A stretch of 64,000 nt of DNA, taken from positions 310,001 through 374,000 of the forward strand of contig NZ_QICJ01000002.1 of assembly GCF_003201105.1 (NCBI RefSeq), given 5' to 3'. The position numbers and the translations under genes are program-made. Every line of letters begins with the position of its first letter. Within the stretch, counting starts at the first letter, position 1. The stretch comes from Dyella sp. AtDHG13 (GTDB taxonomy: Bacteria; Pseudomonadota; Gammaproteobacteria; Xanthomonadales; Rhodanobacteraceae). The notes under the pieces were generated by a model, which made no database searches, was not told the origin of the DNA, and was given only the letters and a program-made list of their open reading frames with translations. Below, in pieces: positions 2,069-14,085 of this stretch.

Positions 2069-2863
2069 CTACCAAAGGCGCACGCGGCTGGCGGATGGCA
2101 GGAACATGGGATCACCCTCCTTCACCTGGAAGGCGCGATAGAACGCATCCTGATTCTCGACCGCGCCGAGCACCCGATATCGATCGGGCGCATGCGTGTC
2201 CGCCAGGGCCTGCGTGATAGCTGCCTGCGTCCTGATGGGCTCCGACGCCCAGGTTCGGGCAAAGCCCAGGTAGAAGCCCTGCTCGCCGGTGAAGCCGTCC
2301 AGGACAGGGGCCGATCGCTGTCCAAGCGCCATCCGGTAGGCGTCATGCGCAATCGCCAAACCCGAGGTATCGGCGATGTTCTCGCCAATCGTCAGCTCGC
2401 CGTTGAGGTGATCGCCCGGTGCGAGTTCGTAGCGGTTGTACTGCGCGATTAGCGCATGTGCGCGCTGCTCGAACTCGGCACGGTCCTTTGGCGTCATCCA
2501 TTCGACGCGCTTGCCCGTTCCGTCATACTGACTGCCGGCGCGATCGAACGCGTGGGTCAATTCATGGGCAATGAAGAAGCCCAGGCCGCCGTAGTTGACG
2601 GCGTCATCGGCGTCGGCCTGGAAGTAAGGCGGCTGCAGCAGCGCCGCGGGCAACACGACCTGATTGCGGCTGACGGAGTAGTAGCCATTCACCGACTGCG
2701 GCGACATGGTCCATTCTTCGCGGTCGACGGCGCGGCTCAACTTGTCGATCTCAAACCGTGACAACAACTCGCGCGCACGCATCCAGTTTCCGACCGGATC
2801 GGTTGGCGTGGTCACCAGGCCTGAATAATCGCGTGTGCGATCCGGTGCGCCCATGCGGGGCCG
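2069..2863 (-). pseudogene. M13 (neprilysin-type) metallopeptidase, 5'-truncated
   Basis: Only the C-terminal catalytic part (about 265 residues) of an M13 zinc peptidase remains; intact family members are about 680 residues. Visible are the HExxH zinc motif within IAHELTHAFDRAGSQYDG, the third zinc ligand in GENIADTSG, the substrate-cleft motif SVNGYYS and the family-typical C-terminus ending RVRLW. Homology starts abruptly near PDRTRDYSGL (about 2850), next to the phage gene ending at 2975. The signal peptide and N-terminal lid domain are gone, so the gene is almost certainly inactive. The break marks a junction between chromosome or island cargo and the prophage remnant. Confidence 0.85.
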
Positions 2864-2974
2864 TGGGGAAGGAATCGTGACCATGCATAAGTGGAATCTG
2901 GCGGCGCCCGGTAACCGACGAATGATTCCTTCGATTGATTTTCATTGTTATCAGCAGTCCCACTTGGCCCTTGT

Positions 2975-3217
2975 TTATTCCGGAAGATCAGCAGAGGCCA
3001 GCACCAGACTGTCGATCACTGACGAGTAGTCGCCGCCAGCACAGGGCTGCCATAGGCTCTCGATAACCGCCCGAGCTTCCTTGCTCGGGTAGTAGTCGAT
3101 GCGAGGGTTAGCCTTCCGGCGTTTCCGCTGCTGCTCAAGCTTGCGTGCCCTTCTCCAGGCCTGCCATTCGGATTCATCCGATGCAGTCAGGACCGGCTGG
3201 CCGGGTTGCCAGGTCAT
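2975..3217 (-). CDS. small phage-type protein of unknown function
   Basis: 80 residues, basic in the middle (RRARKLEQQRKRRKANPRI) with a SNF-free, soluble composition. It resembles small hypothetical proteins that accompany tail genes in prophages of Xanthomonadales, but I cannot name a family. Its ATG overlaps the TGA of the upstream recoded gene as TGATG, so it is probably translationally coupled to it. It ends at TAA and contains no in-frame TAG. It is the last gene of the phage late operon; beyond it lies the truncated peptidase. Confidence 0.65.
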   Translation of the reverse strand: MTWQPGQPVLTASDESEWQAWRRARKLEQQRKRRKANPRIDYYPSKEARAVIESLWQPCAGGDYSSVIDSLVLASADLPE

Positions 3218-3621
3218 CAGTGATACCTCCCTGAGCTGGCCGATTCGAGACCACCAGCGTCATCCTTCTCTGCGGTATGGCTCATCGACTCATCAGAATC
3301 TTCCTTGCTGCCGGGCTTGGCGCCGTGGAGTTCCAGGATGCCAAGGACGTGAGAGTAAGGAATCCAGAAGATCGTTGTATCTCGATCTGCCGGAATATGG
3401 ACGAGCGCCCTCAACATGGCTGGGTGACGAAAATCGAGTTCGGCGCAGTACAGGACTGGATGACCTTCCCTGTCGGAAGTCTGTTGTTCGTCTGCACCTA
3501 TCGGCGTCTATGCCTTTACGAACGCCTGGGCGGCAAGCGCATGGATATTGGAAAGGGGCGATGCACGATCAATGGTGACGTGATATTCGACACGGTTGAA
3601 CGTACGGTTCTGGGTAGTCAT
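3217..3621 (-). CDS. phage late protein read through one in-frame TAG (recoded)
   Basis: Reading TAG as an amino acid gives 134 residues, from MTTQNRTFNRVEYHVTIDRA to a C-terminus ending SSGRYH and TGA. The amber codon is codon 38 (3510-3508), in the context FVKA-TAG-TPIGADEQ. With the standard code the gene would be two pieces of 37 and about 66 residues in the same frame, with no shift between them. A GGAAC ribosome site precedes the ATG, only 10 bases after the TAA of the upstream gene, and the stop overlaps the next start (TGATG). The conserved-looking core RHPAMLRALVHIPADRD lies after the TAG, so the downstream part is real coding sequence. Function unknown; position suggests a virion or tail accessory protein. 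Confidence 0.7.
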
Positions 3622-3631
3622 CGCTTGTTCC

Positions 3632-4036
3632 TTAGCGAGTGCGGAGGGCAGAACCCACCGGGCGAATGAGGGGAGCGAAGCCGGGGCCGATGTAGCCAGC
3701 TGCCTGCTGGTCAACCTGACTTAGTGGATGCCGTACATAGCCCGATGGGAGGCTATCCTAGCCTTGTCCGATTGGAGCTGAGTTCGGCAGCGCCCCACCC
3801 AGTGCGGAAAGCATCGACATGTAATCGTGCGAAGTCCCCTGCTGTGATAGCGCCCACGGTCCAAGCACTGACCAGTCAATGCCCTGCGATGCAGGAATGG
3901 CGTTGCCGCCGCCCAGCACGTTCGCGTAATTCATGCCCTGCGGGTTGCCGGTATTCCAGAGTGGCTGATACTGCTGTAGGCCGGACGGATCGTAGGCGGG
4001 CTATGTCTGCCCAGTCATGAAATTGAAAATGCCCAT
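3632..4036 (-). CDS. phage late protein with two in-frame TAG codons (recoded)
   Basis: 134 codons from ATG (4036) to TAA (3634-3632) with TAG at codon 12 (4003-4001) and codon 93 (3760-3758), and no TAA, TGA or frameshift. The start is MGIFNFMTGQT-TAG-PAYDPSG and the second site is APIGQG-TAG-DSLPSG; glutamine fits both. The product is rich in Gly, Gln, Pro and Tyr, like small structural or ejection-associated proteins next to pilot-protein genes in podoviruses. The ATG follows a strong site formed by the upstream stop itself (TAAGGAG). Because TAG occurs at codon 12, a host without UAG suppression would make only an 11-residue peptide. No family recognised. Confidence 0.7.
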
Positions 4037-4045
4037 GTCCGCTCC

Positions 4046-5122
4046 TTAGAGGTAGTAGCCGAGAAGGCCAGCAGCGCCACCAATGACGCCGCCAGCGACT
4101 GTGCCCAGGCCAGGGATTACGCTACCCGCCGCAGCGCCAGAGAGTGCTCCGCCTGCTGCAGACGCGAGTCCGCCGCCAGCAGTGCGTGCCTGATAGTTGG
4201 GATTTCGACCCGTCGTAGCCGATCCCGTGAAATTGCCAGCGATGGCATTCAGCGCATTGCCGTAGTTGTTGAGCTACTGCTGCTGATAGCCATAATTCTT
4301 CATGTACCAGTCGTTGTAAGCCTGGTCCAGATTGCCCTGGTTGTATTGCTGACCGAGGCCGGCGAGGTTCGCATACTGCCCGAGGAACTGGCTTTGCAGC
4401 GCGTTTGCCCCAGTGATCGCCTGTGACGCATTGAGAATGTTCCCGGCGTTCTGCTGCGCAGCCGTGAGCTGATTCTGGATGCCCGACTGGTAGAGCGCCG
4501 AATTGCGCGCAAGGTCGGTCTGCTGCGCATTGATCTGGTTCTGGATCTGCTGCTGCGCGAGCTGGGCCGATTGGTTGTAGTTCTGGAATAGCAGATTGCT
4601 GTCGGTGTTGCCGATGTTCTGCGCCAGTGTGTTCTGGGCGTTCTGTACCTGCTGGTTGTAGGCCGACCCACCGAATGCACCGCCCTGGGCGAACTGCGCA
4701 GCGAGCTATGGCGCCACGCTGTTCTGGTACGTGTTGGTCAGGTTCGTATTGGCCTGGTTGATCATCGACTGCAACTGCGGGTTCTGACCCATGTACTGGT
4801 TCGTCCCGACCTGCGTCGTGGCTCCCATCCAGGGATTAGATGACGGATTGATGCTGTACTGGCCGTTGACAATCGATTGCAGGGCCGAAGATTGATTCTG
4901 CTGATTACCGAGCTACCCAGCCGATCCGAGCTGAGCAAGGTACTGTGCATTCTGCTGATCGGATGTAAGCGGGGCGGTGAGTTGCCCGGGATACTGCTGG
5001 TATGGCAACGCGTTGACTGCGTTCGTCTGGTTGATGAAGTTCTGATAGTCGTTGCGCAGCCAATCGGGAAGCTGCGTGACCGTCGTGGTCGTCGTGTTTT
5101 TCGGCTAGCTACTACCACCCAT
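4046..5122 (-). CDS. phage structural / DNA-ejection-like protein with four in-frame TAG codons (recoded)
   Basis: One continuous frame of 358 codons from ATG (5122) to TAA (4048-4046), interrupted only by TAG at codons 6 (5107-5105), 70 (4915-4913), 139 (4708-4706) and 283 (4276-4274). The protein is very Gln/Asn-rich: 56 ordinary Gln codons, 50 of them CAG. It begins MGGSS-x-PKNTTTTVTQLPDW and ends in a glycine zipper (GGVIGGAAGLLGYYL). This architecture is typical of podovirus pilot or ejection proteins that insert into the host envelope. Gln at the TAG sites gives natural contexts: SSQPK, APQLAAQF, QQQQLNNY. An AGAGAGGTG ribosome site precedes the ATG. A standard gene caller would see fragments or antisense noise here. 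Confidence 0.75.
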
Positions 5123-5268: not shown

Positions 5269-6027
5269 TCAGACGCGATGGCAAAGCAACAAGATCACAG
5301 CGACGGAACCCGCGACTAGCGGAACAAGAACGTCAATTACCAGCCACCGCAGATTCTGGCTCCGCAGCCACAAAGAAAACCATCGATCGAATCGATTCAG
5401 CGACGCAAGGATACGGGGAGAAGAATCTTGCCTTTCTGCATTCTCAATTGCGTGCCTTAACTCCACCATGCGGCCCTCAACACTGGCTAGAGCGTCAGTG
5501 ACGGCTGTCGAGTTTTGAATGATGTCGCCACCTGACTGCAGGGATTCGATCGTTCTGCGAAGGTCACTTACTGATGCTTCGATAGCTGGCATTCGACCCT
5601 TTAGGGAACCAAAGTATTGCCGTTTTCCCTTCCACCAGTTGTAGAGGCTGGATTGGCGCAAATCCCCGGTGTAGTCGAGATTCTCATCACCAAACGTCCC
5701 GGCCGTTATGAATGCCTGCCTGGTTCCCGTGATCCGCACCCTCCATCCCATGAAGCTATCGAACGCATACCAGACAAAGTGGAGCAGGAGATACCCAACC
5801 GTGATCGCCATGCCAGATCGCAACAAATCGTCTGTCAGGTTCTGCAGATGAAAGCCGAAGATGGGAGAGTCAGCAGCGATTCGCACCCCGGCTACTGTTC
5901 CGCCAATTGAGATGAAGCTGGCCACCAGAAGGTTTCGACGCACCTTTAAGGCATCTTCACTTAGTTCGGCCAACCAAGGCTCCCCCAGCACTTTATCAAC
6001 TGCTGCCACCTTGTCGTCTTCGGTCAT
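5269..6027 (-). CDS. predicted membrane protein, prophage-borne, unknown function
   Basis: 252 residues. Three hydrophobic segments are visible: residues about 36-52 (LLVASFISIGGTVAG), about 72-95 (ITVGYLLLHFVWYAF) and the C-terminus (VIDVLVPLVAGSVAVILLL). Between the second and third is a long soluble part with a helical, coiled-coil-like stretch (about 145-205). The ATG at 6027 follows a strong GGAGGGG site; the upstream ATG at 6054 has none. It lies between the early genes and the recoded late genes, where a cargo gene such as superinfection exclusion or host defence would be plausible, but no family is recognised. It ends in TGA and has no internal TAG. Confidence 0.6.
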   Translation of the reverse strand: MTEDDKVAAVDKVLGEPWLAELSEDALKVRRNLLVASFISIGGTVAGVRIAADSPIFGFHLQNLTDDLLRSGMAITVGYLLLHFVWYAFDSFMGWRVRITGTRQAFITAGTFGDENLDYTGDLRQSSLYNWWKGKRQYFGSLKGRMPAIEASVSDLRRTIESLQSGGDIIQNSTAVTDALASVEGRMVELRHAIENAERQDSSPRILASLNRFDRWFSLWLRSQNLRWLVIDVLVPLVAGSVAVILLLCHRV

Positions 6028-6043: not shown

Positions 6044-6667
6044 CTACTTTCCAAGCGCTACAAGATAAGCGGAAGCCGCCCGCCCCAGCCAGCATAGCAA
6101 TCGCCGCTCGTATTCCCGCGTCAGTTCCCGGAAGGCACTAGCCCGCATCCGAAGCTCTCGCGCCCGGTCGTCCTGGGAGATCGCTGCGCGTCCACAGAGA
6201 ATCCGCTGCATCGCATCCGTGATGGCGCAGTCATCGGCCCAAGACGGTTTCCTTGCCAGCCCAAACCGTTTCACGGTCGGCCAGTATCGGTTTACGCCCC
6301 CCGTCGCATACAGCAACAGGATGGCTTCCAGAGGACCATCCAGTTTGGCGAAGCTCAGCGCGGCGATGGCCTCTGTGTCATGGCGATAGCTCGGGATGGC
6401 GACGACGGTACGGGACGTACTCCACCGATGCTGGCGGCGGACATGTCGGCAACCGTCGATGGACTTCGCAGCCTGCTCTATGACTGGGCCCCGCTTGGCT
6501 ATGGCGAGCACGCAGGACTGGTCCAGTACCTCACTGCCGGGCTCCTCTATACGAGCCTCCTGCATCAGCGGGGCCCAGCCGTAACCCGTGCCAAACGCCC
6601 TAGCCAGGATTCGCGCTGCCATTTCTACGAGGTCCCATTGGTCAACGGTCTGCCCACCGTCCGCCAT
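6044..6667 (-). CDS. phage early/middle protein of unknown function (antiterminator-like position)
   Basis: 207 residues, soluble, with a helical basic C-terminus (RASAFRELTREYERRLLCWL). I cannot assign a family with confidence. The size, C-terminal helices and place at the end of the early operon just before the late genes recall Q-type antiterminators, but this is inference. GAGGTCAAG precedes the ATG and the gene follows the 74-residue gene by 11 bases. It terminates at TAG (6046-6044). If UAG were read through, translation would run only 15 more codons over the next ribosome site to a TGA, so TAG appears to be a true stop here, unlike in the late genes. Confidence 0.6.
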   Translation of the reverse strand: MADGGQTVDQWDLVEMAARILARAFGTGYGWAPLMQEARIEEPGSEVLDQSCVLAIAKRGPVIEQAAKSIDGCRHVRRQHRWSTSRTVVAIPSYRHDTEAIAALSFAKLDGPLEAILLLYATGGVNRYWPTVKRFGLARKPSWADDCAITDAMQRILCGRAAISQDDRARELRMRASAFRELTREYERRLLCWLGRAASAYLVALGK

Positions 6668-6937: not shown

Positions 6938-7062
6938 GTACGGAATCCGTACTGGGCGAAGGGTCGAAAACAGCCCCTATCGCTACGGAATCCGTATCGA
7001 TCAGGCCGCTTCTTGACGCCCACTACTACGGAATACGTATCGATCTGCTACGGAATCCGTAC
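6938..7062 (-). repeat. four 13-bp palindromic repeats (iteron- or operator-like)
   Basis: The palindrome TACGGAATCCGTA occurs at 6939-6951, 6984-6996 and 7049-7061, and with one change (TACGGAATACGTA) at 7027-7039. Start-to-start spacings are 45, 43 and 22 bases, close to multiples of two helical turns, so the sites would lie on one face of the DNA. Copies 1 and 4 are followed by CTGGGC, copies 2 and 3 by TCGATC. They span the 3' end of the winged-helix gene and the gap after it. Lambda-type replication genes carry their origin iterons inside or next to the initiator gene, so an origin or an operator cluster is likely. Confidence 0.7.
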
Positions 7063-7495
7063 TGGGCTCGCTGTTTTTCCTAGGGCGTATGAACGGCTCT
7101 CGTGGGACCTTCCAGTCGCTGGAGGCAACTGACGTCGATGGACAATCCAGCTTGCCACCGCAGTCGTCTATGGGCTTCCAGGTAACAGCGTAGAGGCTGG
7201 CGCAGTTCAGACCACCCTGACGTGTGAGTGTCAGGAAGCCGTAGTACCGCAGCTCGCGAAGCGCCCATTTCAACGTGTCCGGTGACGTCCATCCACGGCT
7301 GCGAAGAACACTGATCGACGCGCAGAGGTCGCCGTTGTTGCGGCCGTTGTATTGACGGGCCACATCACAGAGCAACTTGACGGCTGAGCCCCCACAGGCC
7401 TTCCAGTTAGGTGAGTCCTGGACTGCATGCGGGATCATCGTGAAGGTTCCTGACTCCTTCCGTCCCTTGTGCTTTTGGCGGCTACGAGGCCTCAT
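7001..7495 (-). CDS. winged-helix DNA-binding protein, possible phage replication initiator or regulator
   Basis: 164 residues. A basic N-terminus is followed by a helix-turn-helix-like core: KLLCDVARQYNGRNNGDLCA, then LRSRGWTSPDTLKWALREL as recognition-type helix and YYGFLTLTRQGG as wing. The C-terminal third is disordered and polar. Its ATG overlaps the TGA of the C2H2 gene (ATGA), indicating coupling. The last 20 codons run through two of the palindromic repeats. Homologous-looking proteins are common in small prophages near AlpA genes and are usually unannotated. Initiator or repressor is inferred from the adjacent repeats. Confidence 0.6.
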   Translation of the reverse strand: MRPRSRQKHKGRKESGTFTMIPHAVQDSPNWKACGGSAVKLLCDVARQYNGRNNGDLCASISVLRSRGWTSPDTLKWALRELRYYGFLTLTRQGGLNCASLYAVTWKPIDDCGGKLDCPSTSVASSDWKVPREPFIRPRKNSEPSTDSVADRYVFRSSGRQEAA

Positions 7496-14000: not shown

Positions 14001-14085
14001 TGGTGCCCAAGGGGGGACTCGAACCCCCACGCCTCTCGGCGCTACCACCTCAAGGTAGTGCGTCTACCAATTCCGCCACCTGGGC
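14001..14085 (-). tRNA. tRNA-Leu (anticodon GAG)
   Basis: 85 bases including an encoded CCA. The acceptor stem GCCCAGG pairs with CTTGGGC (one G-U). The D-arm has GGAATTGGTAGACGC, the anticodon stem is CTACC/GGTAG with loop TTGAGGT giving anticodon GAG, a long class II variable arm follows, and the T-arm is GGGGG-TTCGAGT-CCCCC. It lies 11 bases after the secG stop on the same strand and may be co-transcribed. The integrase on its 3' side marks it as the likely attachment site of the island. No second copy of its 3' end was found to the left within the window. Confidence 0.95.

Follow-up and report, generated by a model that had tools for sequence, protein, structure and literature searches.

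Probable satellite-like islands of Rhodanobacteraceae with late genes that read TAG as glutamine and would need the tRNA of a helper phage

Most phages known to recode stop codons are uncultured gut phages, and the reading of TAG as glutamine in phage late genes, together with a suppressor tRNA, was reportedly described by Borges in 2022. Phage satellites (P4-like elements, PICI, PLE) are integrative elements with tRNA genes as integration sites, a tyrosine integrase, an AlpA regulator and genes shared with phages, that have no terminase or portal of their own; P4-like elements and PICI carry hallmark genes that alter capsid size or redirect packaging. Here, we analyzed a window of 64,000 nucleotides from Dyella sp. 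AtDHG13 (assembly GCF_003201105.1, contig NZ_QICJ01000002.1, positions 310,001 to 374,000), in which an integrative element contains three adjacent genes, A, B and P3, that remain open when TAG is read as glutamine. Judging from sequence comparisons, this element probably belongs to a family of satellite-like integrative islands of Rhodanobacteraceae whose recoded late operon needs the tRNA of a helper phage.

Three studies (Kienbeck 2024, PMC10879173; Peters 2022, PMC9523058; Cook 2024, PMC11210395) describe for code 15 phages, which include crAss-like and other gut phages, the features that we also observed: TAG as glutamine, a phage-encoded tRNA with the anticodon CUA, recoded late genes and a host with the standard code. 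The recoded phages described here differ in being ~40-kb SU10-like phages of Gammaproteobacteria, some of them prophages, and in that their tRNAs all have an unpaired first position facing C72 (N1xC72). A CUA tRNA was present in 12 of 12 records, compared with 375 of 715 (52.4%) predicted code 15 phages in Cook 2024 (PMC11210395). Their relation to SU10-like podophages is evident from the prophage G218, whose portal, capsid and adaptor proteins match SU10_portal, SU10_MCP and SU10_adaptor over nearly the whole length, but the late genes are recoded and a CUA tRNA is present, whereas 18 distant portal relatives are free of TAG. The islands, of about 18–25 kb, share the general features of satellites listed above and differ in their common genes A and P3 and in late genes written in the phages' code. 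Glutamine-inserting amber suppressors of E. coli, as presented in parts of PMC9976931, likewise combine a CUA anticodon with a weak or broken 1-72 pair; those arose from laboratory construction or selection, whereas the mismatch seen here has been retained across several tRNA bodies, of which some have a long variable arm. A cold-seep study (PMC10504277) reports recoded viruses whose hosts include Desulfobacterota and Acidobacteriota. Among the matches listed in literature searches on satellites with recoding or stop codons and on code 15 with Proteobacteria, titles and opening abstract lines named neither recoded satellites nor these phages. Code 15 phages as such are already known.

In-frame TAG codons in genes A, B and P3

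Three continuous minus-strand frames of 358, 134 and 134 codons with seven in-frame TAG codons had been reported in the original prediction, and our re-translation agrees. The recount gave seven TAG, no TAA and no TGA within the 626 codons of A, B and P3, and the 72 ordinary glutamine codons proved exact (64 CAG and 8 CAA). The genes terminate in TAA, TAA and TGA, respectively, and the junctions on which their coupling had been proposed were all located (TAAGGAG..ATG, TAAGGAA..ATG and TGATG). The other two forward frames contain mixed stops (5 + 5 in A, 3 + 3 in B and 5 + 4 in P3). The window sequence by itself is only suggestive of recoding and cannot exclude decay, a caveat that the original prediction had raised: in a random-transition model restricted to the window, seven stops would all be TAG with P = 0.25, and with P = 0.045 if all single-base routes are considered instead of transitions. 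Decay is excluded because of the comparison with relatives, not by the window alone.

A search with gene A in 398 genomes of the order matched 10, namely the window's own genome, eight with strong homologues and one with a weak match (G372, 35%, no TAG), which was left out of the relatives. The eight strong homologues contain 3–9 in-frame TAG each and no TAA or TGA, at shifting positions. Within the bacterial family, 11 of 233 genomes matched. An initial search against phage records yielded no match to A; among viral loci, 25 of 28 close ones carry 2–9 TAG and neither TAA nor TGA, and three are free of TAG, two of them belonging to the sister phages G516 and G517 (L120 and L126) and the third being L121 (10 kb). 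No TAG was found in 19 distant loci (L139–L157, 25–35%). The ratio of nonsynonymous to synonymous rates (dN/dS) of the computed A pairs was 0.05–0.42 with dS mostly saturated, which speaks against decay. The A genes of the islands G100 and G074 (dN 0.061, dS 1.105) have 3 and 5 TAG with no column in common; different columns at low dN imply that TAG and CAG replace each other in a protein that is otherwise preserved. A homologue of gene B was found in the island of Dyella marensis (63%), and weak ones (37–38%) were found in the phages G401, G402 and G404.

In the alignment of A, glutamine made up 0.57 of the residues opposite TAG, followed by asparagine (0.10) and serine (0.06), and 0.57 and 0.64 of those opposite CAA and CAG, respectively; in TAG-bearing columns, 405 of 850 non-TAG cells were glutamine. 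These shares kept the near copies G218/G400 and G401/G402 and are hence weighted by them. Glutamine thus occupies TAG columns to an extent similar to that in CAA and CAG columns. For the late families among recoded phages, the glutamine shares were 0.44 opposite TAG, 0.53 opposite CAA and 0.59 opposite CAG, and in comparison with the two TAG-free sister phages they were 0.41, 0.44 and 0.52. Glutamine was the best-fitting residue for TAG, with histidine second at -402 log units (from 696 cells that are not independent), and residues other than glutamine were rejected. In-frame TAG in many genes, glutamine in the columns of relatives and ends in TAA or TGA are the marks of code 15, and all were found. 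Decay or chance was rejected in view of the TAG-only stops in relatives, dN/dS and the coupling to a CUA tRNA. From the sequence data, the recoding of TAG to glutamine in these genes appears near certain. The homologues, the columns and the phage tRNA also support the original idea that these genes stem from phages reading TAG as glutamine, although TAG is a stop codon for the host.

Recoded SU10-like phages and their CUA tRNA

The recoded phage family, which occurs in the same bacterial family as the islands, consists of SU10-like prophages and viral contigs with TAG across the late genes. The extended late module of G218 (Dyella sp. SG609) that includes gene A also encodes SU10_portal (E 1.6e-186), a scaffold protein, SU10_MCP, SU10_adaptor and other structural proteins; in V399 (= L003), the genes after A encode a protein with an SLT domain (C), a DNA ejection protein (D) and a tail-fibre protein. 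At least some of these phages are temperate, since G401 encodes an integrase (PHROG 1, E 1e-50) and since G218 and the phage-type G450 (Luteibacter sp. Sphag1AF) sit on contigs of bacterial genomes. The match to SU10 suggests a podophage form. A scan of viral contigs with the G218 portal yielded 34 loci, 16 close (59–99%) and 18 distant (23–30%; L068–L085). All 16 close loci, some of which may be pieces of one phage, have 1–10 TAG and no TAA or TGA; the distant ones have no TAG. In 12 recoded records, for which G218x, G402 and G450 were dropped as near copies before the late-family and tRNA counts, we counted 405 TAG in 54,387 codons of late families and 14 in 12,531 codons of early families. 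The 14 were confined to the two early families that lie closest to the late module (12 and 2), and the other 8 of 10 families had none. The sister phages G516 and G517 have no TAG in 5,090 and 5,257 late codons; their portals are 57–58% identical to that of G400, and one virion structural protein is 69–71% identical. With the same late module and no CUA tRNA, these sisters (L120, L126, L169–L171) represent a case in which the code was gained or lost in nature.

Phage records and 283 kb of island loci were scanned for tRNA structures with a required CCA end, and reversed sequence served as control. Each of the 12 recoded records yielded exactly one CUA tRNA; the two sister phages and the 283 kb of island loci yielded no such tRNA. 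Reversed sequence gave 11 hits without any CUA, and 23 forward hits had other anticodons. In all 12 records the CUA tRNA starts 436–1,233 bases before the gene of the terminase large subunit. ARAGORN called 10 of the 13 distinct CUA tRNA sequences, labelled 'tRNA-Pyl (cta)', gained nothing with relaxed settings and found no CUA tRNA in the window.

In all 13 sequences, position 1 is U, A or C opposite C72; G2-C71, G73 and an encoded CCA are likewise constant, and 12 have G3-C70. In the exception, G522 (L178, L134), the third pair is C3-G70 and the variable arm is long, and A1xC72, G2-C71 and G73 are kept. A 1:72 pair is present in 30 of the 31 remaining tRNAs of the retrieved loci, the exception being a tRNA-Ser with a doubtful predicted end. 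According to parts of PMC9976931, glutamine identity in an amber tRNA-Ser was set by pairs 1-72 and 3-70, and amber tRNA-Asn suppressors with a weakened 1-72 pair all inserted glutamine. Glutaminyl-tRNA synthetase (glnS, TIGR00440) scored above cut-off in 10 of 10 genomes. A CUA tRNA at L018:8271-8341 and in L050 near 2488-2558, missed by ARAGORN, has a 5-nt D-loop and the T-loop CGCAATT; it lies within a short open reading frame (ORF), and the block of strong conservation stops where the tRNA does. The odd tRNA of G218/G400 was first detected as Rfam tRNA matches below the gathering score and then came under doubt because of the short ORF around it, whose reading frame is shared. It was retained on three grounds: the boundaries of the conserved block coincide with those of the tRNA, a phage search with the peptide of this ORF returned nothing significant, and G525 has the same layout with the usual T-loop.

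Host genomes were searched for CUA tRNAs with two patterns. The first produced 10 hits in 9 genomes, nine of which are one sequence, the tRNA-Arg(UCU) gene in G312, and one an apparent chance site; the second found none in the eight island genomes, its only match being the phage tRNA of G218. The CUA tRNA search proposed for the window was thus positive in the recoded phages and negative in island loci and, by these two narrow patterns, in the host. With no such tRNA found in either place, the code would come from outside.

A family of integrative islands

The island family comprises eight members from three genera: the window, Dyella marensis UNC178MFTsu3.1 (G236), Luteibacter sp. UNC138MFCol5.1 (G326), Luteibacter jiangsuensis CC60 (G074) and CGMCC 1.10133 (G135), G312, G194 and G100. 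Dyella and Luteibacter both belong to the Rhodanobacteraceae, Gammaproteobacteria. All eight have an integrase, an AlpA-like gene and a gene of the family represented in the window by a protein of 207 amino acids (aa), and six have a DnaD-like gene (Table 1); when these early markers were tested on seven phage records, the sole match was AlpA at 24%. A tRNA-Leu gene is present in 7 of 8 loci. The late genes follow the order A, sometimes B, P3, and sometimes C and D. P3 stands after A (or B) in all eight islands and was absent from seven phage records, 41 viral loci and a search of viral contigs; it contains TAG in the window (1), G312 (2) and G236 (2), and therefore a gene of the islands' own uses the code.

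Phage terminase was detected in none of the eight island genomes, and portal matches occurred in 3 of 398 genomes of the order, presumably the set searched with gene A, and none of the three is an island carrier. Matches between island and phage ORFs were limited to A–D and a few small proteins, with the capsid not searched genome-wide. The terminase, portal and capsid genes expected of an SU10-like phage were accordingly not among the genes found for the window element. Right-hand attachment-site (att) copies in G194, G326 and G236 give lengths of about 18, 20 and 24.5 kb. Among 22 other genomes of the genus, G287 is continuous across the G326 site (query 1–430 of 700, 88%), an empty site; in the remaining 21, the query matches no further than about position 366. 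The att copies of G194 and G326 are without one G of the tRNA 3′ end (TTTCGCACCA vs TTTCGGCACCA). Several islands have large serine recombinases as cargo (L024:16581-18107, L030:8806-10650, L030:14754-16298). A profile scan of 10 island proteins, a subset of the genes, found AlpA and weak DnaD-like matches, no P4-like or PICI hallmark and no recognizable packaging gene. The family thus displays what defines satellites, an integrase, a regulator, defined ends (in three members) and no head or packaging set of its own.

The tree of A does not unite the islands in one clade: at least five changes are forced by strongly supported branches, and the islands were united in 0 of 200 bootstrap trees, although the island label shows some clustering (25 of 500 shuffles gave a value as low). 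The window grouped with the phages L002, V399 and G407, G312 with G401 and G402, and G236 with G400, G403, G405 and G406; G218 and G450 were omitted as near copies, and G402 was kept. The A genes of the islands appear to come from several phage branches. The prophage origin first proposed for the window element holds for the code, which came from such phages, and gives way in kind to what is probably a satellite-like island sharing chiefly ejection-protein genes.

Table 1 Features of the element in the window and at its borders
Feature	Position	Strand	Remarks
C-terminal part of M13 peptidase (Pfam)	2069-2884		apparently truncated; far side of element
80-aa ORF	2975..3217	-	TGATG overlap with P3 stop; no TAG; no homologue in compared records
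P3, hallmark gene (third gene)	3217..3621	-	134 aa; TAG at codon 38
Gene B	3632..4036	-	134 aa; TAG at codons 12, 93
Gene A	4046..5122	-	358 codons with TAG as Gln; TAG at codons 6, 70, 139, 283; DNA-ejection-type protein, 358 aa (PHROG 4287 'DNA ejection protein', E 1.8e-12)
252-aa ORF upstream of A	5269..6027	-	no TAG; hydrophobic stretches (by eye); not found in compared records
207-aa early gene	6044..6667	-	family present in 8/8 islands; window copy terminates in TAG
Early gene	7001..7495	-	family in 6/8 islands; no TAG
RHS-repeat-like ORF, 996 aa	7800..10790	+	inside element, opposite strand; repeats judged by eye
ORF with AlpA-like helix-turn-helix segment	12191..12550	+	segment placed by eye in translation
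Tyrosine integrase, 418 aa	12593..13849	-	adjoins tRNA; family in 8/8 islands
tRNA-Leu(GAG)	14001..14085	-	likely integration site

The seven homologues of the 207-aa gene have 204–293 aa as called, and six of them are without TAG and terminate in TAA or TGA. For the early gene at 7001, the relatives in G074 and G100 weakly match PHROG 186 (DnaD-like helicase loader), and the window copy had no PHROG match. An AlpA query matched the window at E ≤ 1e-4. The RHS-repeat-like ORF is probably a later insertion. The far end of the window element was looked for and not found, and genes C and D were not seen in it. The AlphaFold2 model of P3 reached a mean predicted local distance difference test (pLDDT) score of 62.5. 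The 11 best matches of this weak model in the PDB are all SspB, the ssrA-tag/ClpXP adaptor (E 0.36 or worse), its best viral match is an uncharacterised protein (E 0.014), and Pfam gave no support for SspB likeness of P3, so that the weak resemblance to SspB is a lead only. The C-terminus of P3 has a conserved histidine at its end.

A helper-dependent satellite and its alternatives

The comparison supports the code, the phage tRNA and the absence of this tRNA from the island loci, and from these we infer the helper relation itself. We cautiously favor a satellite whose late genes would be translatable only in the helper's code, with the helper's glutamine tRNA as both trigger and required part. 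The broken N1xC72 pair, together with G2-C71 and G73, would let the host synthetase charge the phage tRNA with glutamine. In a cell with an active recoded phage, this tRNA would allow readthrough of TAG, and A, B and P3 would be made only then; without it, release factor 1 should stop the window copy of A after 5 codons. The TAG codons would thus act as a lock, opened only where the late programme of the helper runs. A would join the helper virion, and the element may ride on the helper or interfere with it.

Several points weigh against this reading. Islands and recoded phages were never seen together in one genome, and no wider search for such cells was made. Islands and phages share mainly A–D and a few small proteins, so the helper's identity is deduced indirectly. 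TAG-free sister phages with the same late genes indicate that the code is dispensable, P3 carries TAG in just three of the eight islands, and C and D hold 0–2 TAG in G194, G074 and G326, yet 7 and 11 in G236. The late-family glutamine share opposite TAG falls below those of CAA and CAG. The tRNAs of G400/G218 and V399 are without the usual T-loop motif and lie within a short ORF (shared reading frame), and the two patterns used on host genomes do not catch every known form of CUA tRNA. The window copy, with its RHS-like insertion, undefined end and neighbouring truncated peptidase and with C and D not seen, may be damaged, and it may be dead.

This last point leads to the view that the islands are decayed prophages, recoded SU10-like phages that lost their head, packaging and tRNA genes and kept TAG-bearing genes as functionless left-overs. 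A–D being phage late genes, and the insertion and the end near the truncated M13 peptidase in the window copy, would fit; however, eight islands in three genera have the common set of integrase, AlpA-like gene, 207-aa family, A and P3, their early markers (bar the 24% AlpA match) and P3 are not in the seven phage records, and A is conserved between islands while drawn from several phage branches. Eight independent decays converging on one gene set are improbable, and we regard this explanation as unlikely. Similarly doubtful is a defence island, in which A and P3 would be made only with the recoded phage's tRNA and would spoil virion assembly without any packaging of the element. The same gating by the code applies, no packaging gene was recognised among the scanned proteins, and a homologue of A could compete in the virion, but the integrase, AlpA, the DnaD-like gene and the empty site point to a mobile element, and known satellites often both mobilise and defend.

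Suppression of UAG by the host itself, through its own tRNA or strong near-cognate readthrough, would make a helper unnecessary. tRNA-Gln(CUG) can misread UAG at a low rate, and the tRNA patterns were narrow; against this, the hits traced to the tRNA-Arg(UCU) sequence, a chance site and the G218 phage tRNA, the window's own 207-aa gene terminates in TAG, and 3–9 TAG per A gene would leave little full-length product without aid, which makes host suppression very improbable. The view that nothing is recoded and that CAG simply mutated to TAG in pseudogenes of a dead prophage can hardly be maintained: CAG is common, one transition away from TAG, and chance suffices within the window, but the TAG-only stops in all close portal loci and in every TAG-bearing close A locus, the tRNA coupling and dN/dS refute it.

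The presence of recoding in prophages and islands of isolated Dyella and Luteibacter strains makes gene removal, induction and mass spectrometry possible. The TAG-free sister phages offer a natural comparison for the gain or loss of the code, and the conserved 1-72 mismatch provides a concrete, testable reason for glutamine insertion. If the helper-dependent satellite is real, standard annotation cuts such genes at their TAG codons and so misses them, and one mobile element would sense another through a genetic code that serves as the signal.

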